A stretch of DNA of 18,786 bases from Promethearchaeota archaeon (GTDB taxonomy: Archaea > Asgardarchaeota > Lokiarchaeia > Sigynarchaeales > SOKP01), in assembly GCA_016839905.1 (NCBI GenBank), contig JAEOTJ010000224.1, positions 1-18,786 of the forward strand, given 5' to 3'. The translations under genes and the position numbers were made by a program. Below the pieces are notes generated by a model that made no database searches, was not told where the DNA came from, and saw nothing but the letters and a program-made list of their open reading frames with translations. Shown here in pieces: positions 2 to 18,510 of this stretch. The first letter of the stretch is position 1; each line of letters starts with the position of its first letter.

Positions 2-1033
2 ATGATGTACATGTCTACTATAGGTTTTGGCCTTGCTCTTGGAAATGCTTTCATTGCTTTATCTCGAATTAAAGACCTGAATAAATTTACCACCTTAGAA
101 AGAAGTGCCCATAAACTTAACGGACGTATTGCGGCTATGATTTTTTATATATTATCCGCCATGTGTATTTATTTTGCTTTGTTGCCTCGGATAAATCCTG
201 AGCGATATGGTGAATTATTATCGCCTACTGTATTTACTCATACTTTTATTGGTGGATTTATAGCTTTTATATTATTTACTATAAAGATTTTCTTCGCAAG
301 ATTTAAAAAAGATACAATTTACGCTAAAGGAAAAGTTCTTGGACCCATCGGAATTACGGGATGGTTTATTGCTTATTTTACAAGCAATATTGATTTCTAT
401 TTCTTCGCAAGTACAGCACAGGGTGCTCACCTACCACTCCCAGAATTAATGCCTAATTATTTAATCTCCTTGATTTATTCTTTTTCTATAGGATTTTTCA
501 TATATTTTTCAGTAAAAGCAATAAGTTATAAAAAATCCGGCGGATCTACACAAAAACAGACTTTACACGGTGTTGCAATGATTCTACATGGAATTACATT
601 TGGATATGAAGGTAGTGCAAAAGAATTAATTGGAACACCCGTCCTCTATAAATATGTTTTTCCTAAAACATATCAATTTTTAGAACGATTCGCCCAAAAA
701 ATAGGTCTCGATCTTGAAGAATTGAAAAAACATAATTTAAATGAAGCGATGGATATTGTAATGAAAAAGTTTGCAGAAATAGGTATGGCTGAAAAGATCA
801 AAATAGATTGGGTCTCCGATAGCGAATTTACTGTTGAATCAATCAATTGTTCCACCGCAGTTGTTAGATCCTATATGAATGAAGATGAATTAACGAATTC
901 AATTTGTCCTTGGGCGATTTTAGCCGCAACAATCGTGAATTCCTTGACAGGAAAGGATTTAGAGATTAATCCAAGCGAATTCAATAAGATAGGGTCCAAA
1001 AGTAAGTTAAAAATCTTGGATAAAGAAAAGTAG
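2..1033 (+). CDS. Membrane protein with soluble C-terminal domain (5' end probably cut by window edge)
   Basis: I do not recognise a named family for the whole protein. The first ~175 residues carry about five hydrophobic segments (roughly residues 1-20, 44-62, 79-97, 113-130 and 151-172). Two histidines sit next to membrane segments, H37 in AHKLNGR and H80 in FTHTFIGG, a pattern seen in cytochrome b561-like haem proteins, so haem binding is possible but unproven. Residues ~188-343 are soluble, with a Cys at INCST and a CPWA motif (residues ~279 and ~303), which may be a ligand- or metal-binding domain. The reading frame is open to base 1, with three Met codons in the first 13 bases, so the true start may lie outside the window. 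It ends in TAG, followed by ~200 bases of AT-rich non-coding DNA. Confidence 0.75.
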   Translation: MMYMSTIGFGLALGNAFIALSRIKDLNKFTTLERSAHKLNGRIAAMIFYILSAMCIYFALLPRINPERYGELLSPTVFTHTFIGGFIAFILFTIKIFFARFKKDTIYAKGKVLGPIGITGWFIAYFTSNIDFYFFASTAQGAHLPLPELMPNYLISLIYSFSIGFFIYFSVKAISYKKSGGSTQKQTLHGVAMILHGITFGYEGSAKELIGTPVLYKYVFPKTYQFLERFAQKIGLDLEELKKHNLNEAMDIVMKKFAEIGMAEKIKIDWVSDSEFTVESINCSTAVVRSYMNEDELTNSICPWAILAATIVNSLTGKDLEINPSEFNKIGSKSKLKILDKEK

Positions 1034-3864: not shown

Positions 3865-5130
3865 ATGAATACAAACTTCTATCCGTATCTTCCAAGGCAT
3901 ATAACTCTTAGAAGGTATGAAGAAGTACATATTTATGATTTAAAAATCGATGAGTCTTATATAATTGATGAGGAAGCATATTCGGTTTTGAAACTCGTTG
4001 ATGGTCATACATCTTATCAAGACATTACGGATAAATATCCTAAAGAAAAACAAGGAGAAGTTATTGAAGCTTTAGAAACTTTTCAAGAATTAGGGGTTAT
4101 CTTAGATAATTTAGAAGAGGTTGAGAATGTTAACATAATAAACTTGACATATCAAAATTTACCTGAAATCAATCCATTTAATCCCCCTTATTTAAAATTT
4201 TTAATGATTAATCTTACTGAAAAGTGTAATCTGGCATGTAAGCACTGTTATATTACAGATAAGAATCTAATTGACTTTCCACTCGAAGAATTGAAAAAAA
4301 TCATTCAAGAATTTAATGAACTACAAGGGATAAAGCTTGTTTTAACCGGAGGGGAGCCTTTTCTATACTCAAAATTAAAAGAATTGCTGGAATTTTTAAT
4401 AGATATTCCATTGCAGAAGATTTTCTTATCTAATGGAGTCTTAATAAAAGATTATATGGATACTTTAAATTTAATTAAAGAAAATAATATTGAAGTTTAT
4501 ATAAGTATTGATGGTTTAAAAGAGTCACATAATGATTTTAGAGATGCGAATTGCTTTGATGACTCAATTGAGGGCATTAAACTGCTATTAGATAATGGGA
4601 TTGATGTTTCCATTAACACGATGGTCCATAAACAAAATTTAAAAGATTTCGACGGTATATTAAAGTTAATAAAATCATTAGGAACTATTAAAAATTGGGC
4701 AGTTGATATACCTACTTTTGACGATAACACGCCTCAAGAGATTTTAGATAAATACAAGATTATTCCTGAAGAAGGGGGTCAATTTTTAAAAGATTATGGA
4801 TGGGGGGTAATTTATGAATCAGAAGGAGAACCCGTAGATTATGCTTGTGGACCTTATTTAATGGCTATAGATGTCACGGGGGTAATTACTAAATGTGGAT
4901 TTTTTACAGAAGAAAGTCCGGGTAATATCTTCAAGCTTGGTTTAAAGAAAAGTTGGGAAGCTATACAAAAAAGATGTAGTTGGAACATTTATGAGTTAGC
5001 TTGTGAAGAGAAAGATTGTGAATATCTCAAAGAATGTCGAGGGGGATGTAGATATAGGGCATTTAAAGATACAAGAAATATTATGGGAATAGATTTATAT
5101 AAGTGCTGGCAATTTGGAAAGTTAAAATAA
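3865..5130 (+). CDS. Radical SAM/SPASM peptide maturase with fused PqqD-like recognition domain
   Basis: The 421-aa protein has three parts. Residues ~10-85 form a PqqD-like domain (HITLRRYEEV...YIIDEEAYSVLKLVDG), the RiPP recognition element that binds a leader peptide. Residues ~110-320 form the radical SAM core with C121xxxC125xxC128 and a TGGEP motif (161-165), which cleaves S-adenosylmethionine to make a radical. Residues ~328-414 form a SPASM/twitch region with cysteines at 328, 344, 371, 380, 385, 391, 395 and 414, enough for auxiliary [4Fe-4S] clusters. Such enzymes (PqqE, mycofactocin and sactipeptide maturases) form carbon-carbon or thioether links in ribosomally made peptides. The spacing C380-x4-C385 differs slightly from the usual CxxC. 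The partner peptide is not certain; see the 53-aa gene at 5436-5597. An 84-aa gene follows on the same strand. Confidence 0.88.
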   Translation: MNTNFYPYLPRHITLRRYEEVHIYDLKIDESYIIDEEAYSVLKLVDGHTSYQDITDKYPKEKQGEVIEALETFQELGVILDNLEEVENVNIINLTYQNLPEINPFNPPYLKFLMINLTEKCNLACKHCYITDKNLIDFPLEELKKIIQEFNELQGIKLVLTGGEPFLYSKLKELLEFLIDIPLQKIFLSNGVLIKDYMDTLNLIKENNIEVYISIDGLKESHNDFRDANCFDDSIEGIKLLLDNGIDVSINTMVHKQNLKDFDGILKLIKSLGTIKNWAVDIPTFDDNTPQEILDKYKIIPEEGGQFLKDYGWGVIYESEGEPVDYACGPYLMAIDVTGVITKCGFFTEESPGNIFKLGLKKSWEAIQKRCSWNIYELACEEKDCEYLKECRGGCRYRAFKDTRNIMGIDLYKCWQFGKLK

Positions 5131-5163
5131 TAAAATGAAAGATAGATTTTAAAAATAATATTA

Positions 5164-5168
5164 GAGGT
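5164..5168 (+). promoter_or_regulatory. Ribosome binding site of the 84-aa gene
   Basis: GAGGT ends 7 bases before the ATG at 5176. Clear Shine-Dalgarno sites are uncommon in this window, so it supports the start and translation from the radical SAM transcript. Confidence 0.5.
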
Positions 5169-5175
5169 TATATTA

Positions 5176-5430
5176 ATGGATAAAAAACATGAGATAATCC
5201 GCACAGAAGACGATATTAGTCAATTAGATAGGCAAATAATTAACGCGGTCTGTCAAAAATGTAACTTTTACGCTGAAGATCAAGAATATTGGGAAAAAGA
5301 ATATGAATGTGGCGCATATAAATTTATTCGCCAACTCCTTGAGGATAAAGTAATTATTATTGATGAAATCGAAGATGTTTTTAAAAAAATTGATCTTAAT
5401 CCAGATAGAGATTTAAAAAAAAAAAAATAA
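5176..5430 (+). CDS. Small three-cysteine protein downstream of the radical SAM maturase
   Basis: I do not recognise the family. The 84-aa protein is acidic and mostly helical by composition, with C26-QK-C29 and a third Cys in ECGAY (C45), a set that could bind a metal or cluster. It ends in four lysines coded by an A13 run, so the exact C-terminus is sensitive to indels. It starts 45 bases after the radical SAM stop with a good ribosome site, so the two are very likely one transcript and may work together, for example as accessory protein or partner of the maturase. A role as substrate is less likely because the Cys residues lie in the middle and no leader/core division shows. Confidence 0.7.
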   Translation: MDKKHEIIRTEDDISQLDRQIINAVCQKCNFYAEDQEYWEKEYECGAYKFIRQLLEDKVIIIDEIEDVFKKIDLNPDRDLKKKK

Positions 5431-5443
5431 ATAAGTTATTTAT
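5427..5443. terminator. Bidirectional terminator between convergent small genes
   Basis: The 17-base string ATAAATAAGTTATTTAT is a perfect inverted repeat about G5435. It is flanked by A13 on the left (T13 on the minus strand) and by T6 on the right. It contains the stop codons of both converging genes (TAA 5428-5430 plus, TAA 5438-5436 minus), so it can end both transcripts. Confidence 0.6.
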
Positions 5444-5597
5444 CCTTTTTTAGCTTTACATCAGATCTTTGAATGCCTACTTCTTTACTACCAGGTATCG
5501 CTGTACCACATTGATCTTTTTTAGCCTCATTTGCTTTAAGAGCTTTATCTAATTCAGCTTCCAACTCATCATCTGATATATCTTTTTTATCTACCAT
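5436..5597 (-). CDS. 53-aa peptide, candidate RiPP precursor or small conserved protein
   Basis: The frame starts at ATG 5597 and ends at TAA 5436. The first half is an acidic amphipathic helix (MVDKKDISDDELEAELDKAL), followed by KANEAKK. Then the character changes to DQCGTAIPGSKEVGIQRSDV and a Lys-rich tail. A charged helical leader followed by a core with a single Cys, Gly and Pro is how many radical-SAM-modified precursor peptides look. The gene converges on the radical SAM operon with only five bases between stop codons, sharing a palindromic terminator. It also follows the FTR gene on the same strand after 81 bases. Codon third positions match the neighbours, so it looks like a real gene. 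Its assignment as the maturase substrate is inference; a plain small protein remains possible. Confidence 0.6.
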   Translation of the reverse strand: MVDKKDISDDELEAELDKALKANEAKKDQCGTAIPGSKEVGIQRSDVKLKKDK

Positions 5598-5622
5598 AAT
5601 AAATAATGAGAAAAGGGAATAT

Positions 5623-5657
5623 AAAAAAATTTTTATAATAAAACATAAATTATGTTT
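5623..5657 (-). terminator. Hairpin plus T-run after the FTR gene
   Basis: The inverted repeat AAACATAA-A-TTATGTTT (5641-5657) lies 21 bases after the FTR stop. It is followed on the minus strand by a T7 run (plus A 5623-5629). It probably ends the HEAT/Grx/FTR transcript, though the same stretch must also hold the promoter of the 53-aa gene if that gene has its own. Confidence 0.4.
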
Positions 5658-5678
5658 CTTTAAAGGGATTATAATTAT

Positions 5679-6050
5679 TTATGAATTTTCTTTGATAAAA
5701 TCATAAACCGCTTGTTCCTTCCCAATGGGCCTTCTTTCAGGAACTATAATGTACTCCCTTTCTCCATCATAAAAATCAGGCTTTAAATATAAGTTACAAA
5801 AGCAAGCACCATACTCTTTTATGTCATCCGGAGCGTAATCACAGGGACATATGAGATCTCTATCTAATTCCCTCTTGCCACTCGTTAGTCGGCAAGGACA
5901 GGATTGATATCCAAGTGTTTTTTTATTCGAAACTAATCCTTCAATTAAGTTATTTAAAGTTTCATCATCTTTATTTAAAATCCAGTCGTTTTTTCCAAGG
6001 ACCAACTTAATATATTCAATCATTCCTTCTTGCGTTTCCATATTCATCAT
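5679..6050 (-). CDS. Ferredoxin:thioredoxin reductase catalytic (beta) chain family protein
   Basis: The protein belongs to the family that passes electrons from ferredoxin through a [4Fe-4S] cluster to a disulfide on a thioredoxin or glutaredoxin. The three paired-Cys motifs are all present: CPC (residues ~52-54), CPC (~69-71) and CFC (~84-86). In plant-type chains the spacing is CPC-x16-CPC-x8-CHC; here it is x14 and x12 and the His of CHC is Phe, so the cluster environment differs. The 123-aa length is normal. Its ATG overlaps the stop of the glutaredoxin gene by four bases, which points to coupled translation and to that glutaredoxin being its partner. Similar ferredoxin:disulfide reductases are known in methanogens, without the variable chain, and none is seen here. 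Confidence 0.88.
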   Translation of the reverse strand: MMNMETQEGMIEYIKLVLGKNDWILNKDDETLNNLIEGLVSNKKTLGYQSCPCRLTSGKRELDRDLICPCDYAPDDIKEYGACFCNLYLKPDFYDGEREYIIVPERRPIGKEQAVYDFIKENS

Positions 6051-6364
6051 GCTACACCTCTATCTAATAATTGTTGGAATTTATTAAGGTCATAACCAAC
6101 TACATAATCTCCATTACCGATCATGAAAGGATATGAAATTCGCTCTTGATAATTTTTTCTTAATAAATCTAAGATAGCTGATTTTTGAGAATAAGATATT
6201 TTATCTAAATCTACATATCGATATTTAACATTCTGTTCATTCAACCAACGTTTACATTTCTTACACCACATACAAGTACTGAGAGTAAATATTATAATAT
6301 CCCCGCTATCCTTTTTTCCATCTACTTTTATTGTTAAACCATCTATTAATTCTTCAATTGTCAT
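6047..6364 (-). CDS. Glutaredoxin/thioredoxin-like protein, partner of the FTR chain
   Basis: The 105-aa thioredoxin-fold protein has the active site TC31-MW-C34-KKC37 after the strand IIIFTLS. A cis-Pro (ISYP79F) precedes the second half of the fold, and GDYVVGYD follows, as in glutaredoxins. It begins with an extra ~20-residue acidic segment. The third Cys at 37, three residues past the CxxC, is an extra thiol or metal ligand. The overlap with the FTR gene implies that ferredoxin reduces this protein directly, supplying a thiol route independent of NADPH. Substrates are unknown. Confidence 0.85.
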   Translation of the reverse strand: MTIEELIDGLTIKVDGKKDSGDIIIFTLSTCMWCKKCKRWLNEQNVKYRYVDLDKISYSQKSAILDLLRKNYQERISYPFMIGNGDYVVGYDLNKFQQLLDRGVA

Positions 6365-6411
6365 TGTTATTCATTTTTTTAAAGAATTAGTAAAATTTAT
6401 TCTTATGTTTT

Positions 6412-6858
6412 TTATTCTTGTTTTTTTATTTTAAATTTCCAATTAGGATCGATGCATTTTAAGGCTTCTTCAGTTAATATTTTTAAATTATCTTCGCAGG
6501 ATTCGTATAAAATTCCCAATTGAGTCAGAGTACGTTTATCTCCGATCTTCATTAGACTTTCAACAATTAAAAATAAGCGCTGTTTATCTTGTTTTTCTTT
6601 ATGTAATTCCCTTTTAAGAAACTCTACGATAGGAAGAGTAGCTTTAGCGTTTTTAATCCTCCCCATTGCTTCAATAATTCGATTAATTACAACATCATCT
6701 TTCTCTTTATTAAGAGCTTTATATAAGAGATTTATAGCCCTCCCATCACTGATGATACCAATCTGACGAGCAGCTTCTGCTCTAACTTCCCATTTTTCAT
6801 CATTAAAAAGTTGAGAAATATATTTATTATATAATTGAGTTTGAGTATCTTGTTTCAT
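6412..6858 (-). CDS. HEAT-repeat protein (PBS-lyase-like repeats)
   Basis: This 148-aa, all-helical protein is built of three to four HEAT-like repeats. Two typical units are visible: WEVRAEAARQIGIISDGRAI (residues ~23-42) and DVVINRIIEAMGRIKNAKA (~55-73). Less regular repeats run to residue ~140. Such proteins act as binding scaffolds, often attached to redox or regulatory proteins; no catalytic motif is visible. It starts a minus-strand run with the glutaredoxin-like and FTR genes 47 bases downstream, so it is probably in the same operon. Upstream, a 19-base perfect palindrome (6900-6918) covers the likely promoter. Confidence 0.75.
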   Translation of the reverse strand: MKQDTQTQLYNKYISQLFNDEKWEVRAEAARQIGIISDGRAINLLYKALNKEKDDVVINRIIEAMGRIKNAKATLPIVEFLKRELHKEKQDKQRLFLIVESLMKIGDKRTLTQLGILYESCEDNLKILTEEALKCIDPNWKFKIKKQE

Positions 6859-7074: not shown

Positions 7075-8106
7075 ATGGTTGAACAATTACTCTGTATTAC
7101 ATATTTCGACTCAATTATTGGTCCAAACACGTTTTATTGTAGCAATCCTATTAATAAAACTGAGCATCCTAATTTAAAGAGAGTCCTTGAGTTTAATGAA
7201 GAAGAAGGGACTTTTATATTCAGTTATAGGCGGTGGCAAACTATTAATCACATATTTTATGTAGATTCAGAGTTAGCACGTGGAGGCAAGGAATTTGTAA
7301 TGATATCATATTTATTAAGATCCTCATATTTCCGTAATGAGATTGTTGACGTCTTTAAATATTTAGAATCAAAAACTCCAATTTTAGAAGAGTATGCTTC
7401 AAAATTGAAAGGAGATAAAGATTTTTCTAAAATTTTACATCCGAGTAAAGATAGGTCAGTATCTTCAAAGTTAACTGATGAAGGTTCGGAAGAATTTCAA
7501 AATAATTTCAAAAAATTATTTTATAATTATTTTAAAAAATTATCTCCAGTTTCAGAAATTAATGCTTTATTAAAAACTAAAAGTAGTTTAAAAAAAATAT
7601 TCATACTTGGCTCTCGGTATGCAGGAAAATCCACTTTTTTGAAAAATATTGAACAAGTACAATTTCTTAATCAAACGAATAATGATTTACCTACAAGGGT
7701 ATATGATGTAATTATTGATAATATTGATATTTTAACATTTGATTGTATTGATAGAGACTTAGAGTGTGAAAAGTGTAAAAATTATGGAGGATGTGCTGAG
7801 AATGCTCAAGCATACATTGTAATGCTTGACGTATCAAATGAAGACACTTTTGATGAAACAAAAAATAAATTTCAAAAGATTATAAAAAGATATTCCACTC
7901 ATGAAAAAAAAATTAATCCAATATTAATAATTGGGAATAAAATTAATAGTAAAGAGACAATTAATGTACATACGATTCATAAAGCATTTAATGTGAAGGA
8001 TTTAAAAGACTCTGGTATTAAAATCAAATATTATCCCATAAATATTTTAAAGGATAAAAAAGGTATAATGACTGCGCTTCGCTGGTTAGTCAAGCACATG
8101 ATATAA
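7075..8106 (+). CDS. Longin-like domain fused to Ras/Arf-superfamily GTPase with cysteine cluster
   Basis: Residues ~1-115 resemble a longin/uDENN-type domain: a first strand with FDSIIGPNTFY, paired strands around FIFSYRRWQTINHIFYV and EFVMISYLLRSS, then a helix. Residues ~172-343 are a small GTPase: P-loop G179SRYAGKST187, switch I near LPTR (T207), a switch II entry FD223CID, strand AYIVMLDVSN, and base-recognition IIGN288KIN291. Three departures stand out: the DxxG motif is DCID, NKxD is NKIN, and C224, C231, C234 and C240 sit in or after switch II where no small GTPase needs them. They could bind zinc or act as a redox switch. Asgard genomes are rich in such GTPases, and fusions to longin or roadblock domains are the archaeal counterparts of trafficking and Rag regulators. 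A glutaredoxin-like gene follows 53 bases on. Confidence 0.85.
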   Translation: MVEQLLCITYFDSIIGPNTFYCSNPINKTEHPNLKRVLEFNEEEGTFIFSYRRWQTINHIFYVDSELARGGKEFVMISYLLRSSYFRNEIVDVFKYLESKTPILEEYASKLKGDKDFSKILHPSKDRSVSSKLTDEGSEEFQNNFKKLFYNYFKKLSPVSEINALLKTKSSLKKIFILGSRYAGKSTFLKNIEQVQFLNQTNNDLPTRVYDVIIDNIDILTFDCIDRDLECEKCKNYGGCAENAQAYIVMLDVSNEDTFDETKNKFQKIIKRYSTHEKKINPILIIGNKINSKETINVHTIHKAFNVKDLKDSGIKIKYYPINILKDKKGIMTALRWLVKHMI

Positions 8107-9080: not shown

Positions 9081-9614
9081 TTATTTTTTCAATTCTTTTG
9101 CTTTTTCTAATATAAAATTATAATACTTCTTTTCCATCCATAATCCCAGTTCTATCATTTTATTTAGAATATTATAAAATTCATTATAAGATGTAAGAAT
9201 ATTATTTTCTAATGCATCAAGAAGGATTTCAGTACTCCATTTTGTACTAATACCTTTTGATTGAGCAATTTCTCTTGCCATTTTATCATTAATTAATAGA
9301 ATATCAGCTTTTAATTCAAGATATAGAGCAATAGCATATGCCTCACCCCTACCTAGATCTCGTGTTAATTTTAGAGCAATTTCTTGATATTCTTCTTGTT
9401 GGGGATCTTTTATAATCAACCATCCTTCTTCTTTAGCACGTACTTCATATTTTATATCGATAGGTATTTCTTTTTTAGGCTTAGAAAGTGGATCTGTTAA
9501 TTCCTCCCAAACTGCATTAGGTATAAAAACTTGAGAGTATAAATCTTTTAAAATTGAAATATTGCCTGTCTTGGCAAAATATATGATAGGAGATGTATCA
9601 GAAATTACAATCAT
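9081..9614 (-). CDS. PIN-domain protein (DUF3368 type), probable toxin
   Basis: PIN domains are metal-dependent RNases. The 177-aa protein shows the acidic residues expected: D6 in ISDTSPIIYFAK, E37/E38 in AVWEELTDP, D86...E91 in DLGRGEAYAIAL, and D110 in LLINDKMAREIA. The pattern is that of the DUF3368 branch, which pairs with UPF0175 proteins as here. It follows the UPF0175 gene by ten bases on the same strand, so this is a toxin-antitoxin cassette, by analogy with VapBC. The C-terminal ~40 residues extend beyond a minimal PIN domain. Activity as a toxin is inferred from context. Confidence 0.85.
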   Translation of the reverse strand: MIVISDTSPIIYFAKTGNISILKDLYSQVFIPNAVWEELTDPLSKPKKEIPIDIKYEVRAKEEGWLIIKDPQQEEYQEIALKLTRDLGRGEAYAIALYLELKADILLINDKMAREIAQSKGISTKWSTEILLDALENNILTSYNEFYNILNKMIELGLWMEKKYYNFILEKAKELKK

Positions 9615-9624
9615 TTTTAAAATT

Positions 9625-9849
9625 TTAAATATGGATTGGAATCCGAGCTTTTGAACGAATCATATCAAAATCACGAAAAGATAAGCGAGCAATTTCAGTA
9701 GCTTTACCAATTGAGATTTTACCTCTCATATATAATTCCAATGCATCTTGAATTACTTTCGGTAAAGAATTAATATATTCCCAATCAATTGGTTTCATTA
9801 AATCCTCATTATCAAACCAATACTTCCTCAAATCGCTTTTTTGAACCAT
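9625..9849 (-). CDS. UPF0175 family protein, probable antitoxin
   Basis: The 74-aa protein has the UPF0175 pattern: a short N-terminus, LPKVIQDALELYMRGKISIGKA, then a helix-turn-helix-like TEIARLSFRDFDMIRSKARIPIHI. The family is the usual cognate of DUF3368 PIN proteins and probably binds its own promoter. It sits ten bases ahead of the PIN gene. The ATG follows a purine-poor leader, so the start is chosen by family alignment and position. Confidence 0.85.
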   Translation of the reverse strand: MVQKSDLRKYWFDNEDLMKPIDWEYINSLPKVIQDALELYMRGKISIGKATEIARLSFRDFDMIRSKARIPIHI

Positions 9850-10231: not shown

Positions 10232-12136
10232 ATGGAAAAAAACAGAATGTCATACTATGAATCTGTTCAAAAAGTATATGAAAGGATAAAAAAAGATGGG
10301 ATGACTAATATATGGGATCGTTTCGAAGCACAAGGTTTTGGTGGAGATCCAGATAAGAGATGTCCCTTCTGCCTAAAAGGCGCTCGCTGTGACCTATGCT
10401 CAAATGGACCATGCCGTTCTGATGCGTCAATAGATAAAAGAGGCGTGTGCGGGATGACTGCTGATGGAATGGCAATGAGAATGATGTTGCTTAGAAATGT
10501 GATGGGAGCATCAACTTATCATTATCATACTGAAACAACAATAAAAACTCTTAGGGCAACAGTAGAAGGAAAAACACCCTTCAAAATCTCAGAATCCGAA
10601 AAATTAAAGAGTTTTTCGGAACGTCTTGGATTAGATACTTCAGGATCTGAGAAAGATATTGCAATTCGTTTATGTAATTTTGTAAAGGAAGATTTTAATC
10701 GCCCCTACAACGAGCCAAGCATAATAGTTAAAGCACTTGCTCCAAAAGAAAGACTTGAAATATGGGAGAAATTGGATATTCTTCCGGGAGGTATTTATGG
10801 AGAAATGATGCTTGCAACAAGTTCTTGCTTGACAAATATCGATGGATATTATGTAAGTTTAGCACTTAAAGCCATGCGTTTAGGAATCTCAATGGCTTAT
10901 CAAAGCCAAATAGTAAATGAATTCTGTCAAGATATCTTATTTAATATTCCAAGACCTCATAAAATGAGAGTTGATCTTGGTGTATTAGACCCTGACTATG
11001 TAAATGTTCTTCCAAATGGACATGAACCATTTTTAGGCTTTGCAATGGTTCAAGTAGCCCGAAAATCAGAGTGGCAAGAAAAAGCTAAAGAAGTTGGTGC
11101 AAAGGGAATAAGAATAATCGCAAATATTGAAACTGGACAGGAAATGATACAGAGATGGGAAATGGATGATGTTTTTTATGGATTTACAGGGAATTGGATT
11201 GCTCAAGAAGCCATATTAGCAAGTGGATGTGTAGATATCTTTGTTGCTGATATGAATTGTTGCATGCCGATTGATCCAATTTATGCTGAAAAATATAAAT
11301 TTAAACTGATACCCGTGAGTGAAGTTGTAGCATTCGAAGGAATTACTGATAGATTAAATTATATCCCCGAAGAGGCGGAACAACAAGCAGAAAAGTTGTT
11401 ACAAATGGCTATAGATAATTTTAAAGAGAGAAAAGCGAATATTGAACCTGTAAAAGGATTAAATATGGGGGAAGCGATCGTTGGATTCTCTACTGAAAGC
11501 ATTCTTGAAGCACTTGGAGGTACGTTAGACCCATTATTAGATGCCATTAAAGATGGGGCAATTAGAGGAGTTGCAGGACTAGTTTCATGTACTTCTCTAA
11601 GAGATTATGGTCAAGATGTACACACAATCGAGATCGCTAAAGAATTGATTAAAAGAGATATACTAGTATTGTCGATGGGGTGTGGAAGCGCCGCCGTGCA
11701 GGTTGGAGGACTTTGCATACCAGAAGCTAAAGAACAGGCAGGACCTGGATTAAAGGCAGTATGTGAAAAACTAGGAACGCCCCCAATTCTAAGTTTTGGA
11801 ACATGTACAGATACAGGGAGGATTGCAGATTTAGTTGCTGCGGTTTCAGATGCTTTAGGAGGTGTCCCCATACCAGACCTTCCAGTAGTAGCAGCAGCTC
11901 CTGAATACATGGAACAGAAAGCTACGATAGATGCAGTTTTTGCTTTAGCGTTTGGTTTATATACATATGTTAATCCAGTACCCACAGTTACCGGCGGTCC
12001 TAATCTTGTAAAGCTGTTAACGGAAGATTGTAAAGATGTAACAGGGGGAATACTTCATTTAGAGACAGATTCAAAAGAAGCTGCTGATGCAATGTTGGAA
12101 CATATAGAAAACAATCGAAAAAAACTTGGAATTTAA
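10232..12136 (+). CDS. cooS: Anaerobic Ni-carbon monoxide dehydrogenase catalytic subunit, variant C-cluster
   Basis: CooS interconverts CO and CO2 at a Ni-Fe-S C-cluster; B and D clusters pass the electrons on. Full length, 634 aa. D-cluster ligands are C44-PF-C47 (CX2C, not CX7C). B-cluster ligands are C53, C56, C61 and C73. For the C-cluster, numbered against the Carboxydothermus hydrogenoformans CODH-II enzyme from memory, I see H264 (GHEP), C343 (MNCCMP), C453 (SCTS), C484 (MGCGSA), C525 (GTCTD) and the catalytic Lys K563 (APEYMEQK). The ligand of the pendant iron, normally the second Cys of CCTGNE, is replaced: here it reads NIE300TGQE. A transport histidine pair is visible (YHYH, 97-99). 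No cooF, cooC or acetyl-CoA synthase gene is adjacent. The family is certain; CO oxidation is not. Confidence 0.9.
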   Translation: MEKNRMSYYESVQKVYERIKKDGMTNIWDRFEAQGFGGDPDKRCPFCLKGARCDLCSNGPCRSDASIDKRGVCGMTADGMAMRMMLLRNVMGASTYHYHTETTIKTLRATVEGKTPFKISESEKLKSFSERLGLDTSGSEKDIAIRLCNFVKEDFNRPYNEPSIIVKALAPKERLEIWEKLDILPGGIYGEMMLATSSCLTNIDGYYVSLALKAMRLGISMAYQSQIVNEFCQDILFNIPRPHKMRVDLGVLDPDYVNVLPNGHEPFLGFAMVQVARKSEWQEKAKEVGAKGIRIIANIETGQEMIQRWEMDDVFYGFTGNWIAQEAILASGCVDIFVADMNCCMPIDPIYAEKYKFKLIPVSEVVAFEGITDRLNYIPEEAEQQAEKLLQMAIDNFKERKANIEPVKGLNMGEAIVGFSTESILEALGGTLDPLLDAIKDGAIRGVAGLVSCTSLRDYGQDVHTIEIAKELIKRDILVLSMGCGSAAVQVGGLCIPEAKEQAGPGLKAVCEKLGTPPILSFGTCTDTGRIADLVAAVSDALGGVPIPDLPVVAAAPEYMEQKATIDAVFALAFGLYTYVNPVPTVTGGPNLVKLLTEDCKDVTGGILHLETDSKEAADAMLEHIENNRKKLGI

Positions 12137-12223
12137 ATTATTAACACTATTTTTTTATTAAATATTTCTTATTTTTATATTAAAAAGAAAGAATATAAGT
12201 TCTATATTATCTAATTAAATTTT

Positions 12224-13189
12224 ATGGAAACACATCAATTAAAACCTAAAGTCTCCATCATTGGATCTGGCAATGTTGGAACGAGATATGCATATTCGCT
12301 AATTATAAAAGGATTAGCACGTCAAATTGTCATGATTGATATTAATAAAAAGCGATTAGAAGGAGATGTAATGGATCTCTCTCATGGCGCTCCTTACGTT
12401 CCACCAGTGGAGATTGTGTCAGGTGATTATCCTGATATTAAAGATTCGGATCTAATTGTCATAACTGCTGGTCGAAACCAGACACCACAAGAAACGAGAT
12501 TAGATCTCATTAAAGATAACATTCAAATATTTCAAAAGATCATTCCGGAGATTGTAAGAATAGCTCCTTCAGCACTTCTTTTAATAGCTACAAATCCTGT
12601 GGACATTCTATCTTATGCCGCTTATAAGATCTCGGGAAAGCCTTCAAATCAAGTGATTGGCTCAGGTACAGTATTGGATACTGCTAGGTTTAGGTACTTA
12701 CTTGGCAAGTGTTGTAATTTAGATGCTCGAAACGTACATGCATATATTCTTGGGGAGCATGGAGATACCGAGTTTGCAGTTTGGAGCAGTGCGATGATAG
12801 GTGGGACGGCAATAAAAAAATATTGTTCAATATGTGAAATTGCTAATGAATGCGATCCCGAAAGAAAATTAAATGGGATTTTCGAGGAGGTTAGAGATTC
12901 CGGCTATAAGATCGTTGAAAGAAAAGGAGAAACATCCTATGGGATAGGACTGGCACTTGCTCGAATAACGCAAGCAATCCTTCATGATGAACATACGATA
13001 TTACCTGTTTCGATATTAATAGAAGATTATTTAGGGATAAATGATGTTTATTTAAGCTTGCCCGCAGTATTATGCAAGAATGGAATAAAAAAGATCCTTC
13101 AGATTGAATTTAATTCTGAAGAACAAGAAAAATTCAAGAAGTCAGCGCAAAAAATGAAAGAAATGATTAAAGAGATAGATTTAAACTAA
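12224..13189 (+). CDS. ldh: L-lactate dehydrogenase (NAD-dependent)
   Basis: This member of the lactate/malate dehydrogenase family has 321 aa. The NAD-binding loop GSGNVG (residues 14-19) and D39 at the end of the second strand favour NAD over NADP. The substrate loop reads GRNQ86TPQETR92: Gln at the discriminating position indicates lactate, where Arg would mean malate. The other catalytic residues are N124 (TNP), D152 and R155 (LDTARFR) and H179 (GEHGD). A short Cys-rich insert (C201, C204, C210) follows the catalytic His region. The enzyme interconverts pyruvate and lactate with NADH in the cytoplasm. It is followed by a regulator gene ten bases later, so it is probably under that regulator's own operon control. 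Confidence 0.88.
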   Translation: METHQLKPKVSIIGSGNVGTRYAYSLIIKGLARQIVMIDINKKRLEGDVMDLSHGAPYVPPVEIVSGDYPDIKDSDLIVITAGRNQTPQETRLDLIKDNIQIFQKIIPEIVRIAPSALLLIATNPVDILSYAAYKISGKPSNQVIGSGTVLDTARFRYLLGKCCNLDARNVHAYILGEHGDTEFAVWSSAMIGGTAIKKYCSICEIANECDPERKLNGIFEEVRDSGYKIVERKGETSYGIGLALARITQAILHDEHTILPVSILIEDYLGINDVYLSLPAVLCKNGIKKILQIEFNSEEQEKFKKSAQKMKEMIKEIDLN

Positions 13190-13199
13190 AGGATTATCA

Positions 13200-13853
13200 A
13201 TGCACGTAAATAGATCGAGCTTAGCCAGGGTTAAAATAAAATTTCCGGATAAATTATGGCTTTCTGAAATTTTTAAGAAGTTTCCTGATATAAAAATTGA
13301 GATTTTAAATTTCCTACCCTATGATTTAGAGAAATCCATCGGAAATGCAATAATTGAAGTTAAGCATTATAATATAGGCTCCGTAATCACAGAAATAAAA
13401 AACCATGCATCTATATTTGAATTTAGCGTTTTAGAGCAAGAAGAAAATCAGATTAAAATCAATGTAAAAACGAAAGATCCATATTTATTATATGGAATTA
13501 TTAGATGTGGGGTTCTCGTTGATTTTCCCGTGAATGTTCGGGAGGGTCATGCCTTCTGGAGATTAATTTCATCAAGAGAAAGAATAGATAGACTTTTAAC
13601 CTTATTTGAGGAAAAAAATATTACTTTTGAACTCCTTAGAATCGGAAATTCCCTTTATAATCTTGAGGAGGATAAAAATAAATTGAGTTTAGATGAAATA
13701 AAAACCTTGGAAAAAGCAATTCAATCAGGATTCTTTGAAGTTCCGAGGAAGATATCCTTAGAAGAATTAGCAAAAATGCTTGGGAAATCTAAATCTGGTC
13801 TATCCGTCATGTTAAGAAAAATAATTAAAAAAAAAATAATGATCGAACCTTAA
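13200..13853 (+). CDS. HTH_10 (bacterio-opsin activator type) transcription regulator
   Basis: The 217-aa protein has a C-terminal helix-turn-helix of the HTH_10 type. The run LEKAIQSGFFEVPRKISLEE (residues ~167-186) is the family hallmark, normally the pattern A...GYF..PR.i.l.ela. It is followed by the recognition region LGKSKSGLSVMLRKI. The N-terminal ~150 residues form a ligand- or signal-sensing part with mixed strands and helices and only one obvious Cys (C103). It is common in archaea and controls redox or energy genes. The gene starts ten bases after ldh, so the two form an operon. It overlaps the convergent ferredoxin-like gene by four bases at the stop codons. Targets are not known; ldh and cooS are candidates by position. 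Confidence 0.82.
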   Translation: MHVNRSSLARVKIKFPDKLWLSEIFKKFPDIKIEILNFLPYDLEKSIGNAIIEVKHYNIGSVITEIKNHASIFEFSVLEQEENQIKINVKTKDPYLLYGIIRCGVLVDFPVNVREGHAFWRLISSRERIDRLLTLFEEKNITFELLRIGNSLYNLEEDKNKLSLDEIKTLEKAIQSGFFEVPRKISLEELAKMLGKSKSGLSVMLRKIIKKKIMIEP

Positions 13854-14644
13854 ATTTTTCCGGTTCTTAAAATTTCGCCATCTCGACTGACTATAGTTTC
13901 ATGCAATTCAATAGGCTTGCCTACTGCGTCTATTATGGGCTTCATGAAAAACTTTATTTTTTGGCAGCAAGGTACTTCCATCAGAACCATATTGATGCTT
14001 TCTATAGGATTTACTTTTAAAATATGTGCCAATTTCTCTAATTCTGGATCTCCTAAGCTTAGCATCGGACAGAGTGTGACAATTGGCTTTCCTTTTAAGA
14101 TTTTTCTATGGAAATCACCATAAGCTAATGGAGCACAATCCGAAACAATGATTAATTCTTTGGTATTGAAGTATGGAGCTTCTGGACTTACTAATGCGAG
14201 TTTCGTTGGCCATTGCCTCAGAGCAGAAGGGATCTCCCCTGTGATCTTGGACTCTTCCCAAGTTTCATCATATACAATAGTTTTTGCTGATGGACAACTG
14301 CATTGATGAGAATGAGATTGCTCCCCCAAACTTGTATGTTTGAGAGTCTTTTCCAAATGTTCTTGTTCTTTCTTCTTTAATTCTTCTAAATGTTTTTCAA
14401 CAGCTTCTTCATCAAACTCAGGCACTTCCCGCTCTTCAATAAGTAGGGCCCCTTCAGGACATTCACCAATACAAGCACCTAATCCGTCACAAAAAACATC
14501 ATTGATAACTTTAGCCTTTCCATCTATTATGGTAAGAGCTCCTTCTGCGCAGGCTACAACACATTGTCCGCAACCGGTACAGCGATCTTCATCAATCTTA
14601 ATTATTTTCCTTTTAACGGTATTTTTTTGTTCTACTTCAGTCAT
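13850..14644 (-). CDS. 4Fe-4S ferredoxin-domain protein with C-terminal domain
   Basis: The start at 14644 (MTEVEQKN) is chosen because upstream codons code a hydrophobic, T-rich string unlike the family. The 264-aa protein begins with two cluster motifs. The first is complete, C22xxC25xxC28xxxC32. The second is C52DGLGAC58IGEC62P, where Leu stands at the second Cys position, a variant common in this family that may hold a [3Fe-4S] cluster. A charged helix (~77-105) and a Cys/His stretch HSHQCSC (C115, C117) lead to a C-terminal domain with conserved Cys in IVSDCAP, TLCPML and VPCCQK. Such proteins occur near hydroxylamine reductase and CODH genes in anaerobes and are likely electron carriers. 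It converges on the regulator gene. Confidence 0.82.
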   Translation of the reverse strand: MTEVEQKNTVKRKIIKIDEDRCTGCGQCVVACAEGALTIIDGKAKVINDVFCDGLGACIGECPEGALLIEEREVPEFDEEAVEKHLEELKKKEQEHLEKTLKHTSLGEQSHSHQCSCPSAKTIVYDETWEESKITGEIPSALRQWPTKLALVSPEAPYFNTKELIIVSDCAPLAYGDFHRKILKGKPIVTLCPMLSLGDPELEKLAHILKVNPIESINMVLMEVPCCQKIKFFMKPIIDAVGKPIELHETIVSRDGEILRTGKI

Positions 14645-14745
14645 AATTATAATATATAAAAAATAATTGATAATTCTTATTCCGAACATGTTCAAATATT
14701 TAATCTTGGTGTTTATGGTGAGAAATTGTAAAATTTTAAAGTTCA

Positions 14746-15174
14746 CTAGTTCTTAATTTGGTTTAAACTTTTAACATTTTTCTTTAAATCCTTTGGAAGT
14801 TTGTTAATTATTTTTTGATCTGCAGTAAATAAAACACTTCCCATTTCTATGCTTAATCCAACATAGGAAGCATCATATATTGACATATTATGCTCAACGG
14901 CTATCTTAACGGTGCTTTCTCGCACTTTTTTTTTTAATGTTACTATAGTAAAACCATAGTTTTCTAAACTTTCACCTGCATCATTTAGTTCTGTTTGGGT
15001 GAATAATTTACTATATTTCAATGCATTTAAAACTTCAAAGAATAATAAAGAAGGAACAACTAATTCGATTTCACCTTCAATATATTTATCTCGGAGAATT
15101 CTTGCTTTATCAGAACCTTCTTCCTCAATAAACCACTTTACAATAATATTTGCATCTACAATTACTTGTTTCAT
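14746..15174 (-). CDS. vapC: PIN-domain RNase toxin VapC
   Basis: The 142-aa PIN protein has the four acidic residues of VapC in place: D7 in VIVDANIIVKWF, E47 in LLFFEVLNAL, D101 in IYDASYVGLSI and D119 in LFTADQKI. VapC toxins cut tRNA or rRNA and are held inactive by VapB. It follows its antitoxin gene on the same strand with a 25-base gap. A hydrophobic stretch of codons downstream towards the ferredoxin gene is non-coding. Confidence 0.9.
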   Translation of the reverse strand: MKQVIVDANIIVKWFIEEEGSDKARILRDKYIEGEIELVVPSLLFFEVLNALKYSKLFTQTELNDAGESLENYGFTIVTLKKKVRESTVKIAVEHNMSIYDASYVGLSIEMGSVLFTADQKIINKLPKDLKKNVKSLNQIKN

Positions 15175-15199
15175 TGTTCTATTTACGATTAATAATTTT

Positions 15200-15430
15200 C
15201 TAATGCCTTTCTTCTCTAAAACTACGTATTATCTCTACACTATTAAAATTTTCAGGAGCTTTTTTACGAATCTTTTCATTGATCAGGATTGCCTTAGCAA
15301 CATTTCTTTCCCTTTCATTTTTAATTCTTTTAATAATTGCTTCTCGTAAGACTTCGCTCCAATTTAGATGCTTATTTTTTTCCATCTCTTTTTTTAATTC
15401 AGGATCAATTCTTATACTAATATTTACCAT
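15200..15430 (-). CDS. vapB: Ribbon-helix-helix antitoxin VapB
   Basis: The 76-aa protein has an N-terminal ribbon-helix-helix DNA-binding domain (VNISIRIDPELKKEMEKN, then LNWSEVLREAIIKRIKNE). A C-terminal tail (ENFNSVEIIRSFREERH) likely wraps the toxin. It precedes the VapC gene. The start ATG lies about 30 bases from a TATA-like box, giving an almost leaderless message. Confidence 0.87.
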   Translation of the reverse strand: MVNISIRIDPELKKEMEKNKHLNWSEVLREAIIKRIKNERERNVAKAILINEKIRKKAPENFNSVEIIRSFREERH

Positions 15431-15451
15431 TTTTAATCACAAATAATAAAT

Positions 15452-15475
15452 GTAATACGTATATAAAAATATTAC
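15452..15475 (-). promoter_or_regulatory. vapBC promoter and candidate operator
   Basis: The minus-strand TATA box TTTATATA (plus 15460-15467) is flanked by the inverted half-sites GTAATA (15452-15457) and TATTAC (15470-15475). A further GTAAT lies at 15483. This arrangement fits autorepression by the ribbon-helix-helix antitoxin. Confidence 0.45.
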
Positions 15476-15582
15476 TATGATGTAATCCAAAATTCCAATA
15501 GACCAATTGAGTATGGAAATTATTTTTTCAGTTCTTTTACTATATAATAAAAATCTTAAAATATAAAGAAAAATCATTTAGA

Positions 15583-16950
15583 ATGATGAAGGTTTCAATT
15601 ATAGGAAATGGCGTTGCGGGAATATTTTCTGCCCAAAATATTAGAAGCTTAAATAAAGATGTCGAAATTGAGATTTTTTCTCAAGAAAAATATCCTTATT
15701 ATTCAAGAATTAAATTACCCGAATTAATATCTGAGAAGCTAAAGATTGAAGATCTCATTGTTTTTAAAGGAGAATGGTATGAAAAGAATGAAATAAAAAC
15801 AAAATTGGGTAAAAAAATTAATAGAATTCATCCAGAACATAAACATATCTTTATAGAAGGTGAGAGTGACCCAATATCCTATGATAAACTAATTTTGGCC
15901 ACAGGTAGTATGCCAAATATCCCTCCTATTAAAAATGCTCATAATTTATTAGGTAAAGGTGTGTTTACCTTGCGAAATATAGACAATGCTTTACAAATAA
16001 AAAATTATATTATAGAAAATGATATTAAAAAAGCTATAATCATTGGTGGAGGGCTTTTAGGGTTAGAGCTTGCGAAGCAGATTAATAATCGGGATTTAGA
16101 TACAACTGTAATAGAGTTTTTTCCCAGGTTACTACCAAAACAATTAGATTTAGATTGTGGAAATATGCTCAAGGAAGTTATTGAGGAGATGGGAATAAAA
16201 GTTATTGTAGGAGCGGCTACAGAACAAATTCTTGGGGATGGAAAAGTCTCAGGAATAAAATTAAAAAATGGGCGGATTTATGACGCAAATTTGGTATTAA
16301 TTCAAGCAGGAATTCGGCCGAGTATTGATATAGTAATACAAACTAAAATCAAAACAAGTAAAGGTATTATTGTAAATCAATATTTAGAAACTAATCTTAA
16401 AGATATCTACGCTGTTGGAGATTGCATTGAATATAAGGGTTATACTTGGGGAATCATTCCTGCCTGCATAGAACAATCTAAGATCATCTCTGCCACTATT
16501 TTAGGAAAGAAACACGTACAATATAGGGGTACAATTCCTAAAAATACGCTGAAGATCGTGGGGATTGACTTAACTACCATCGGAATGTTTGATCTTGAAG
16601 ATATCGAGCAAGTTGGTGCAGGTTGGGAGATAATCAGAGCGGCAGATAAAAAGGGAAAATGTTATAAAAAAATTGTTTTAAAAGATAATAAACTTAAAGG
16701 AGCAATACTATTTGGTGAAAAGAAAGCGGTTTCTTATGTTAATAAGAATATTGACTTAGAAGTTGATGAAATAGAATTACGTACAGCTCTAGAAATTTTT
16801 AAATGGAAATGTAACAGCTGTAAAAATATTTATGATGAAGCAAGAAGGGAATTATTATTTAAGGACTTGCCTGATGGATGGAAATGTGACTGTGGAGCTC
16901 CAAAGGAGGATTTTGAAAGATTTCCTCCCATTAAAAATAAAATAATTTAA
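15583..16950 (+). CDS. FAD/NAD oxidoreductase with fused C-terminal rubredoxin domain (rubredoxin reductase-like)
   Basis: The 455-aa protein has an N-terminal FAD loop G8NGVAG13, the ATG motif in LILATGSMP (residues ~104-112), an NAD loop GGGLLGLE (155-162) and the FAD-binding motif DIYAVGD280. This is the pattern of NADH:rubredoxin oxidoreductase and nitrite reductase-type flavoproteins. From residue ~405 a rubredoxin domain is fused (C410NSC413, FKDLPDGWK, C435DC437GAPK). The second Cys pair is C-x-C instead of the CPxC of rubredoxins, one residue short. The fusion suggests electrons pass from NADH through FAD to the iron site and on to a separate rubredoxin (two candidates follow). These systems feed superoxide and oxygen reduction in anaerobes; no terminal reductase is in this window. 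Confidence 0.88.
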   Translation: MMKVSIIGNGVAGIFSAQNIRSLNKDVEIEIFSQEKYPYYSRIKLPELISEKLKIEDLIVFKGEWYEKNEIKTKLGKKINRIHPEHKHIFIEGESDPISYDKLILATGSMPNIPPIKNAHNLLGKGVFTLRNIDNALQIKNYIIENDIKKAIIIGGGLLGLELAKQINNRDLDTTVIEFFPRLLPKQLDLDCGNMLKEVIEEMGIKVIVGAATEQILGDGKVSGIKLKNGRIYDANLVLIQAGIRPSIDIVIQTKIKTSKGIIVNQYLETNLKDIYAVGDCIEYKGYTWGIIPACIEQSKIISATILGKKHVQYRGTIPKNTLKIVGIDLTTIGMFDLEDIEQVGAGWEIIRAADKKGKCYKKIVLKDNKLKGAILFGEKKAVSYVNKNIDLEVDEIELRTALEIFKWKCNSCKNIYDEARRELLFKDLPDGWKCDCGAPKEDFERFPPIKNKII

Positions 16951-16966
16951 AAATTATGATATAAGT

Positions 16967-17122
16967 GTGATTAAAATAGCAGCATATCGTTGTAAAAGAT
17001 GTGGTTATATTTACATTGATGATAAACAAGATAAACCATTTGAAAGTTGTGATGAAATAAACTTTAAATGTCCTCGCTGTAGGTGTTCAAAAAAACTATT
17101 TGAAAAATTACCAAATTCATGA
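16967..17122 (+). CDS. Rubredoxin-like small protein, GTG start
   Basis: This 51-aa frame begins at GTG 16967, 16 bases after the oxidoreductase stop. The first Cys pair is YRC9KRC12GYIYID, the rubredoxin opening. The second is FKC35PRC38 followed by RC40SKKLFEKL, in place of CPxCGxxK. The usual middle Asp/Pro loop is replaced by an insertion with a further Cys (ESC28). With six Cys it exceeds the four needed for one iron. It is likely co-transcribed with the flavoprotein and may be its electron acceptor, though it departs enough from rubredoxin that its metal could differ. GTG is the only start giving the full first motif. Confidence 0.7.
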   Translation: MIKIAAYRCKRCGYIYIDDKQDKPFESCDEINFKCPRCRCSKKLFEKLPNS

Positions 17123-17203
17123 AATAGAAATAAGAAATTTTTTTATATAATAAGTAATTAAACCATATTAATTCTATTTTAATCTTAAAGGTAAAGAAAA
17201 ATA

Positions 17204-18085
17204 ATGAAAATAAAAAAATACATTAAAACGTCAATTCCTTTTATAATTCTTTTTGTAATAATTATAGTTTCTATGATTACTGGTAGTGATCAAACACAAA
17301 CGAAATTAACAAATATCTTTCCTGTTGTAAGAATGGGGACCGAGTTAGGTTTAGTTTTTATATTAATTATGCTCTTTTCCATAATAGGAGTATTATTCAC
17401 GGGATATATATTGGGGCCTCTTTTTTTAATTGTTCATAAAAATATTACTGGGAGAAAGTTAGATTATGGGATACAAGTGAAACCTACACCCAAAACATAT
17501 AAAGGGATTTCAAAAGGATTATTTCCCGCTCTGATGGCAGTAAATATGTCTTTAATGATTGCATTTAATCCCGTTTTAATTGATATTATTGTACATGAAG
17601 AATATCTTACAAGACATTTGGGCACAGAATTAGGATTCGCAGTAGTTTTTTTTGTTTCCCTCATAGTGACAACATGTATTGCAATGGCCATATTTTCACC
17701 CGTATGGTTTTTACAGAGTGCTGGAATTATATTCACAAACAAGGAAAAAGTGAAAGATACAATTGATCCCTTGGAAGTACGGAGTGTGGGGGGAACATTT
17801 TTTAATCTCTTAAAAGGTTATGCAGGTATTGGAGTAATAATCGCATATATCGGTTTCTTCATACAAATAATTGTATTGTTGGAAGGGGATATTGGGGGAG
17901 TAATTTCGGTATCCTTGTTAATCCCATTAATGCCAATTATCATTTCAGTTCTTTGTATTCCAGCATTCATTTTACTTGATATGACTACAGAACATAGGAA
18001 AAAATTCATATTGGATTTCGCTAAAAAAATAGGAATAACAGAATTTTATGAAATTGATATAAGAAAAGTATCAAATATAGAGTAA
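17204..18085 (+). CDS. Polytopic membrane protein of unknown function
   Basis: I do not recognise the family. The 293-aa protein has about six or seven membrane helices: residues ~11-27, 48-80 (long, possibly two), 107-130, 144-172, 206-227 and 233-260. The loop after the second (KPTPKTYKGISKG) and the C-terminal ~35 residues are polar. No catalytic motif or signal peptide cleavage pattern is visible. It sits between two rubredoxin genes in a same-strand run, but with gaps of 81 and 62 bases, so a shared job is only a suggestion. Confidence 0.7.
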   Translation: MKIKKYIKTSIPFIILFVIIIVSMITGSDQTQTKLTNIFPVVRMGTELGLVFILIMLFSIIGVLFTGYILGPLFLIVHKNITGRKLDYGIQVKPTPKTYKGISKGLFPALMAVNMSLMIAFNPVLIDIIVHEEYLTRHLGTELGFAVVFFVSLIVTTCIAMAIFSPVWFLQSAGIIFTNKEKVKDTIDPLEVRSVGGTFFNLLKGYAGIGVIIAYIGFFIQIIVLLEGDIGGVISVSLLIPLMPIIISVLCIPAFILLDMTTEHRKKFILDFAKKIGITEFYEIDIRKVSNIE

Positions 18086-18147
18086 GGTTATAAGGTTAAG
18101 CGAAATTTAAAATATATAAAGAATTTAAGGGTATAATCTTTTTTAAA

Positions 18148-18405
18148 ATGGACCGTATAGGATCTCGGTCTGAAGGTCCAGAATATTTTCTTAAATTATC
18201 TACTCCAAATGAATTTGGTCAACTCGATTTACCAATAGTAAAGAAAGTGAAATCATGGGAAGAAGATCCAAATTTACACCAATTTATTAATAAAATGGTG
18301 GTAATATCAGGTGAGTCTGTAAAAATTAAACACACTTCTCTCGATGGAACGAAGAAGGCTGAAAGGATAGAATACAATGAAATAAAAGAAATAATAAATC
18401 TATGA
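18148..18405 (+). CDS. Hypothetical 85-aa protein
   Basis: No family recognised. The 85-aa protein has no Cys, no membrane segment and a mixed strand/helix look, ending in KIKHTSLDGTKKAERIEYNEIKEI. It begins with MDRIGSRSEGPEYFLKL, where an ATG at 18148 follows a T-rich leader. Codon third positions are A/T as in the neighbours. It is downstream of the membrane protein by 62 bases. Confidence 0.55.
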   Translation: MDRIGSRSEGPEYFLKLSTPNEFGQLDLPIVKKVKSWEEDPNLHQFINKMVVISGESVKIKHTSLDGTKKAERIEYNEIKEIINL

Positions 18406-18499
18406 GGATGAAATTACCTTTTTATAAAATATTAAATTAACATTTTTATACATGTTCAATTTAATTACAATATAATTTTGATTAATTATTTTAACAAAT

Positions 18500-18503
18500 G
18501 GAG
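18500..18503 (+). promoter_or_regulatory. Ribosome binding site of rubredoxin
   Basis: GGAG lies 7 bases before the ATG at 18511 and fixes this start. Confidence 0.55.
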
Positions 18504-18510
18504 ATAAAAA

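Follow-up and report, generated by a model that had tools for sequence, protein, structure and literature searches.

SPASM enzymes that bear an RRE use this domain to hold a small protein, from which the 5′-deoxyadenosyl radical originating from the radical SAM cluster abstracts a hydrogen. The precursors modified by SuiB, CteB, SkfB, and TigE are short peptides, and anSME acts on a protein. QhpD is reported to form three Cys-to-Asp/Glu thioethers in QhpC, the leader of which is held by the enzyme (PMC7876137). A genome-mining study published in 2025 reported predicted RiPP clusters for the most part in Euryarchaeota, but also across Asgard, TACK, and DPANN, the abundant classes including ranthipeptides and sactipeptides (PMC12144867). 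The accessible part of that survey does not describe the pair analyzed here, which consists of a radical SAM/SPASM enzyme and an 84-aa protein, and the accessible literature that we searched afforded no description of such an enzyme-partner system. The original prediction made from this DNA considered that RiPPs are poorly described in Asgard archaea, which holds broadly, although the same survey does report predicted clusters in this group.

The window, i.e., the whole stretch of 18,786 nucleotides that was analyzed, originates from an Asgard (Lokiarchaeota-like) genome. Three ORFs had been singled out, encoding a maturase of 421 residues, a protein of 84 residues containing three Cys, and a protein of 53 residues containing a CGTAIPG motif. 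The coordinates of the ORFs and both sequence features were exact, and each ORF is a conserved gene (Table 1). The gene encoding the 84-aa protein is located 45 bp downstream from the enzyme gene on the same strand.

Table 1. Position of the features of the enzyme-partner locus and of the adjacent redox genes in the window
Feature	Position	Strand	Evidence
Radical SAM/SPASM enzyme with N-terminal RRE (PqqD-like) domain, 421 aa	3865..5130	+	PF04055 E 1.7e-23; predicted fold; profile
RRE/PqqD-like domain, residues about 5-85	3877..4119	+	Predicted model and fold alignment
Radical SAM cluster motif CNLACKHC (C-x3-C-x2-C)	4225..4248	+	C121, C125, C128 invariant in 40/40 aligned sequences
SPASM region, 7 invariant Cys (C328, C344, C380, C385, C391, C395, C414)	4846..5106	+	Invariant in 40/40 aligned sequences
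84-aa three-Cys (C26, C29, C45) partner protein, proposed substrate	5176..5430	+	Co-occurrence, adjacency, conservation; helical model pLDDT 88.4
Partner N-terminal segment (MxKxHxIxRTExDIS), possible leader, close (Loki-type) clade only	5176..5220	+	H5, I7, R9, E11, D13 almost invariant across the 31 close rows
Three-Cys core C26-C29-C45 (CxxCNFYxExQEYWExEYECGAYK)	5251..5310	+	Invariant Cys in 43 rows
53-aa gene, contains CGTAIPG, final gene in the redox cluster lying on its right	5436..5597	-	57/227 genomes; FTR-beta beside it at 58/67 places
Ferredoxin-thioredoxin reductase catalytic beta chain (FTR-beta), neighbor, separate unit	5679..6050	-	PF02943 E 2.6e-21
Glutaredoxin-like protein, neighbor, separate unit	6047..6364	-	PF00462 E 3e-9

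The enzyme contains the CX3CX2C radical SAM motif and the SPASM auxiliary-cluster Cys residues of the RRE-dependent radical SAM/SPASM maturases, all of which were invariant in an alignment of 40 rows comprising 31 of 120 listed homologue rows (that of the window included) and 9 rows obtained from loci. The SPASM motif C-x(2-4)-C-x5-C-[RK]GGC was present in 21 of the 21 enzyme loci scanned, and the Pfam SPASM model did not match the enzyme of the window. Seven SPASM Cys residues have also been reported in AlbA, ThnB, QhpD, MftC, and KW cyclase (PMC5491770). The third element of this class of maturases, an N-terminal RRE, was recovered by profile comparison, since the enzyme aligned from about residue 20 with TigE, CteB, and SuiB and covered the N-terminal part of these proteins. 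It was also recovered by fold alignment of the enzyme model, which extended over residues 7 to 420 with SuiB and over residues 11 to 407 with SkfB, most of the other rows covering only residues 100 to 422. In the model, the domain is composed of four strands (residues 6-8, 13-17, 21-25, and 30-34), three helices (36-42, 51-56, and 60-75), and a last strand (80-82). Assignment of a PqqD-like domain to residues 10 to 85 in the original prediction was therefore borne out by the profile and the fold alignment but not by the Pfam PqqD model, which did not match the N terminus of the enzyme.

The closest solved structures retrieved by a fold search with the predicted enzyme structure included SuiB, anSME, SkfB, and CteB, and identity to the SuiB, CteB, SkfB, and TigE-type neighbors obtained in fold searches was 15 to 22%. 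anSME has the SPASM fold in common with the enzyme, but the alignment begins only at residue 109 of the model, indicating that anSME lacks the RRE. The score obtained with TIGR03942 was 68.6 bits for a cut-off of 349.45, and Pfam did not reveal any sulfatase among the 20 window proteins scanned. Together, sequence comparison and structure prediction indicate that the enzyme has the RRE-radical SAM-SPASM layout and is of the peptide-modifying kind.

In agreement with the earlier remark that no known RiPP family was obvious, the 25 best of the 80 NCBIfam matches all remained below their respective cut-offs. By these curated cut-offs, the enzyme does not belong to the named AlbA (61.5 bits versus 850), StsB (65.8 versus 625), or WgkB (68.7 versus 650) families, and the SkfB model was absent among the 25 matches listed of 80. 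The best NCBIfam match was AhbD heme b synthase, and MoaA, viperin, and BlsE were among the structural neighbors, as might be expected for an enzyme that makes a small molecule of the heme or cofactor type, like AhbD or NirJ, with the 84-aa protein acting as an accessory. We consider this explanation improbable. The AhbD score (TIGR04545; 104.2 bits) is far below the cut-off of 500, the best-matching stretch is restricted to the radical SAM core, and both the RRE and the top structural neighbors point to peptides.

Ninety-two homologues of the enzyme were found at 51 to 67% identity (fragments included), beyond which identity dropped to 33 to 40%. The named close relatives belong to Lokiarchaeota and Promethearchaeota/Promethearchaeia, with one Hodarchaeota record. 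Bacterial relatives display 33 to 40% identity and the same three-domain layout by alignment, and they group apart from two Asgard clades in an unrooted tree. The search of plasmids and viral contigs retrieved nothing new, nor did that of 97 relatives of G088, all of which belong to the 227 genomes considered below.

The co-occurrence of the enzyme with the two small proteins, the 84-aa protein having been named second in the original prediction, was investigated in 227 Asgard-phylum genomes. The maturase was detected in 21 genomes (E 1e-50), and the 84-aa protein was found, by a single-sequence search, in 21 genomes as well. A clear homologue of the partner was present in 20 of the 21 maturase genomes versus 1 of the 206 others (Fisher p = 1.9e-26), the latter being genomes in which no maturase was detected, since scoring was limited to seven candidates in each genome and most of the assemblies are drafts whose completeness is not stated. 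Of the 20 genomes harboring both genes, 17 have them on the same strand with no more than 73 bp in between, three of these pairs being called as overlapping. The two genes were separated by 674 bp and one ORF in G003, by 11 kb in G178, and by about 20 kb in G177. The partner genes of the latter two genomes comprise two units (L087:16021-16446 in G178 and L089:5411-5839 in G177) and are flanked by what we take, by eye, to be a DJ-1/PfpI-type gene upstream and a ZIP-type transporter gene downstream.

G179 is the one maturase genome devoid of a clear partner homologue, and the partner profile gave a weak match there (E 1.7e-4), which was counted as doubtful because the frame is devoid of the first two Cys. 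In G157, the one genome with the partner and no detected maturase, stop codons are located nine residues ahead of the ITPLNRK segment of a partner-like stretch, the usual N terminus is gone, and the first codon resembling a start codes for leucine and is located two places ahead of the first Cys. No match to the enzyme was detected within the 18 kb examined around this copy, the sequence of which suggests a remnant that persisted once the enzyme had been lost. No other gene of the window recurred beside the pair in all the neighborhoods fetched, the relatives having been compared with the genes of the window only. The 84-aa protein is the dedicated and adjacent partner of the enzyme, a pairing that the 53-aa gene does not display. 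Since it is the constant companion found for the enzyme, the 84-aa protein is probably its substrate.

The 84-aa protein has 92 homologues with 64 to 85% identity. Alignment of 31 close rows, drawn from 93 homologue rows, revealed 21 invariant residues, mostly within CxxCNFYxExQEYWExEYECxAYK. In a second alignment of 43 rows, combining 26 of these homologue rows with 17 stretches obtained from loci, residues C26, C29, F31, and C45 were invariant and residues Y32, E37, A47, and Y48 were conserved in at least 90% of the rows. The three Cys were present in 29 of the 29 domain copies extracted, which were chosen by a pattern containing the first two Cys, the third not being preselected. All 25 ORFs retrieved by BLAST contained one or more copies with this pattern, but a copy devoid of the first two Cys within a longer ORF would escape such a selection. 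In diverged Asgard genomes, the unit is present as a single copy, as a pair of adjacent genes, or twice within the same ORF. The spacing of the first two Cys is C-x3-C in these genomes versus C-x2-C in the close clade, and the leader-like N terminus is missing from the diverged copies and from the G157 remnant. The sole Pfam match of the 84-aa protein of the window was below the cut-off (15 versus 24.9 bits), the best Pfam E-value over 31 members of the family was 0.0067, and neither the sequence search nor the fold search of the PDB retrieved a relative. The description of the locus as a peptide-modifying RRE radical SAM/SPASM enzyme associated with a small protein outside the described families was upheld. 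Separately, a likeness between the C..C..C core of the partner and the SPASM tail of its own enzyme was considered (profile comparison P 0.0012, 20% probability). It was treated as a chance resemblance, the best hhalign match being located elsewhere with a score of 19.5, whereas column shuffling (150 shuffles) gave scores of up to 25.4.

Comparison of 11 close loci (55 pairs) led to mean identities of 0.76 for the partner versus 0.59 for the enzyme. The two sets of distances correlate (r = 0.58), a result that shared descent could give by itself, and dN was well below dS for both genes in the pairs L004/L100, L004/L005, and L005/L100. Based on these 11 loci, the partner evolves more slowly than the enzyme within the clade of the window. 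This order does not hold across clades, since identity to the proteins of the window is 24 to 38% for the diverged partner copies and 34 to 37% for their enzymes. Unlike the SuiB, CteB, SkfB, and TigE systems, the enzyme is associated here with an 84-aa protein that is, in its clade, more conserved than the enzyme itself. This is unusual for radical SAM peptide systems and points to a modified protein that has a function of its own. A small partner adjoining an RRE-bearing maturase would also be compatible with a classical RiPP precursor that is cut after modification and exported as a peptide. This explanation seems improbable, as the close rows are conserved along their full length, beyond the conservation of the enzyme, and as Pfam revealed neither a protease nor an exporter among the 20 window proteins scanned (the neighbors of the relatives having been compared only with the genes of the window). 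Full-length conservation, slower evolution in the close clade, and the absence of a protease or exporter in this set thus lead us to expect that the modified protein would stay in the cell.

Since the partner is predicted, on its own, to adopt a well-ordered helical fold, it could equally be a metal-binding protein. According to this alternative, the principal one, the partner would be a three-Cys Fe-S or zinc metalloprotein acting as an electron donor, a scaffold, or a specificity subunit, and the substrate of the enzyme would have to be sought elsewhere. The location of Cys26, Cys29, and Cys45 at, or next to, helix ends in the confident model suits metal binding, full-length conservation in the close rows suits a folded working protein, and the domain is found in tandem and two-unit copies. 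However, there is no invariant fourth ligand (E37 is conserved in at least 90% of the rows), the spacing of the first two Cys alternates between C-x2-C and C-x3-C, and RRE-bearing enzymes usually act on a small protein encoded adjacently. We therefore regard a metalloprotein partner as unlikely, albeit far from negligible.

The account that we favor, with moderate confidence, is a two-gene post-translational modification module in which the enzyme modifies the 84-aa partner at the three-Cys core. It is based on what is observed, namely, an enzyme of this domain architecture, a partner that is dedicated to it and encoded adjacently, and the invariant Cys and SPASM residues. The RRE would bind the 84-aa protein, and the enzyme would cleave SAM at the radical cluster, the SPASM clusters handling electrons. 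The partner would then be modified at its core, likely through crosslinking of Cys26, Cys29, or Cys45 to a conserved residue in the vicinity, such as Glu37. That the Cys core is the site of modification is a claim that we place slightly short of probable, and a thioether is a possible but rather doubtful product. The modified partner would probably be a small folded intracellular protein with a built-in modification, with no trimming to a secreted peptide.

By analogy, the nearest precedent for the enzyme-partner pair would be QhpD and QhpC (the gamma subunit of quinohemoprotein amine dehydrogenase), which likewise associate a SPASM enzyme with a single small protein that contains Cys, is encoded together with the enzyme, and ends up as a working protein. 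In the 84-aa partner, the three invariant Cys and the highly conserved E37 offer residues for a putative thioether. The locus does not have the composition of a qhp operon, as Pfam did not reveal QHNDH subunits, a leader protease, an ABC transporter/exporter, or an FAD monooxygenase among the 20 window proteins scanned. It also differs from QhpD/QhpC by its archaeal host, by a partner that has no PDB relative by sequence or fold, and by the fact that export is not indicated.

Several observations do not favor modification of the partner by the enzyme. In a model of a read-through fusion of the two proteins, the partner part was mostly of low confidence (10-residue means of 41 to 87), and no N-terminal strand of the partner on the RRE and no confident contact were predicted. 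The Pfam PqqD model, as mentioned above, does not recognize the N terminus of the enzyme, and the leader-like N terminus of the partner is absent in the diverged clades. Across clades, the partner is no more conserved than the enzyme, the two genes are 20 and 11 kb apart in G177 and G178, and G179 has the enzyme with only a weak partner match.

The 53-aa protein, the precursor favored by the original prediction, is small, acidic, and encoded 5 bp from the 84-aa gene. The stop codons of the two genes face each other across these five bases (5431-5435), indicating that the 53-aa gene is convergent, on the opposite strand. A word search retrieved 15 homologues, and a profile of 16 homologues detected the gene in 57 of the 227 genomes. 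These comprise 10 of the 21 maturase genomes versus 47 of the 206 in which no maturase was detected (p = 0.018), a weak association that common ancestry could give. The relatives of the 53-aa gene were located at 67 places, of which 30 were examined with 3 kb each, while the remaining 37 were read upstream over at most 1.7 kb. The FTR-beta gene adjoined the 53-aa gene at 30 of 30 and 28 of 37 places, respectively (58 of 67), the glutaredoxin gene was found at 57 of 67 places, and a HEAT-repeat gene was near at 23 of the first 30. At the nine places devoid of FTR-beta, the 53-aa gene is a second copy that scores lower than the best copy of the same genome, which does adjoin FTR-beta, indicating that an FTR-beta-linked copy is present in all 57 genomes. 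The maturase and the 84-aa gene were absent from all 67 stretches. Thus, the linkage to FTR-beta and glutaredoxin, in the absence of the maturase nearby, indicates that the 53-aa gene is the end of a conserved redox cluster.

Of the 10 maturase genomes that have the 53-aa gene, 9 carry it on another contig than the 84-aa gene, contig ends leaving the distances open. In the remaining genome, G003, the 53-aa and 84-aa genes are close together and separated by a gene encoding 503 aa. Adjacency of the 53-aa and 84-aa genes is, as judged from these genomes, a feature of the lineage of the window. It is extremely improbable that the 53-aa protein is the precursor. Forty-seven of its 57 carriers have no detected maturase, wide conservation of this kind being the observation that the original prediction had itself named as decisive against the proposal, and 11 of the 21 maturase genomes do not have the 53-aa gene.

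The Asgard redox cluster (5436-6858, minus strand) comprises, in order, genes for a HEAT-repeat protein, the glutaredoxin, the FTR beta chain, and the 53-aa protein. The single Cys of the latter (D-x-C-G) is kept in the window and in 30 of 30 aligned relatives, and the 53-aa protein may be a partner or a substrate of the FTR/glutaredoxin pair. The window also encodes a conserved protein of 343 residues (2-1033, plus strand) that has no Pfam match at E 0.001. The corresponding gene adjoins the 53-aa gene in 7 of 30 loci (L034, L036, L038, L050, L052, L056, and L060), and the maturase region sits between these two genes in the window and in G003.

Other genes of the window are listed here for completeness. 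The gene at 7075-8106 (plus strand) encodes an Asgard eukaryote-signature type protein in which an Arf/Ras-type GTPase domain (PF00025) at the C terminus is preceded by about 160 residues that are perhaps longin/roadblock-like by eye. A PIN-domain protein (PF01850; 14746-15174, minus strand) is encoded after a small gene that has no Pfam match (15200-15430, minus strand), forming a toxin-antitoxin-like pair. A second toxin-antitoxin pair is possible, consisting of a 177-aa protein that has no Pfam match and is PIN-like by eye (9081-9614, minus strand) and a UPF0175-like protein (9625-9849, minus strand; 24.3 bits for a cut-off of 27.9). The region 10232-18645 is rich in redox genes, including those for a CO dehydrogenase (Prismane/CODH family) and a rubredoxin-type reductase (15583-16950), and contains ORFs that are rubredoxin-like by eye (16967-17122 and 18511-18645).

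In summary, an incorrect guess of the precursor is replaced by a well-supported enzyme-partner pair that is directly testable and whose partner matched no described family or fold. We tentatively suggest that Asgard archaea could possess a conserved, protein-derived intracellular crosslink or cofactor, installed by radical SAM chemistry on a new family of 84-aa, three-Cys helical proteins, sometimes in tandem, by a dedicated RRE-SPASM enzyme. The pair might then be a housekeeping counterpart of QhpC/QhpD rather than a source of secreted peptide. If this is true, such a protein modification would occur in the archaea that are closest to eukaryotes.
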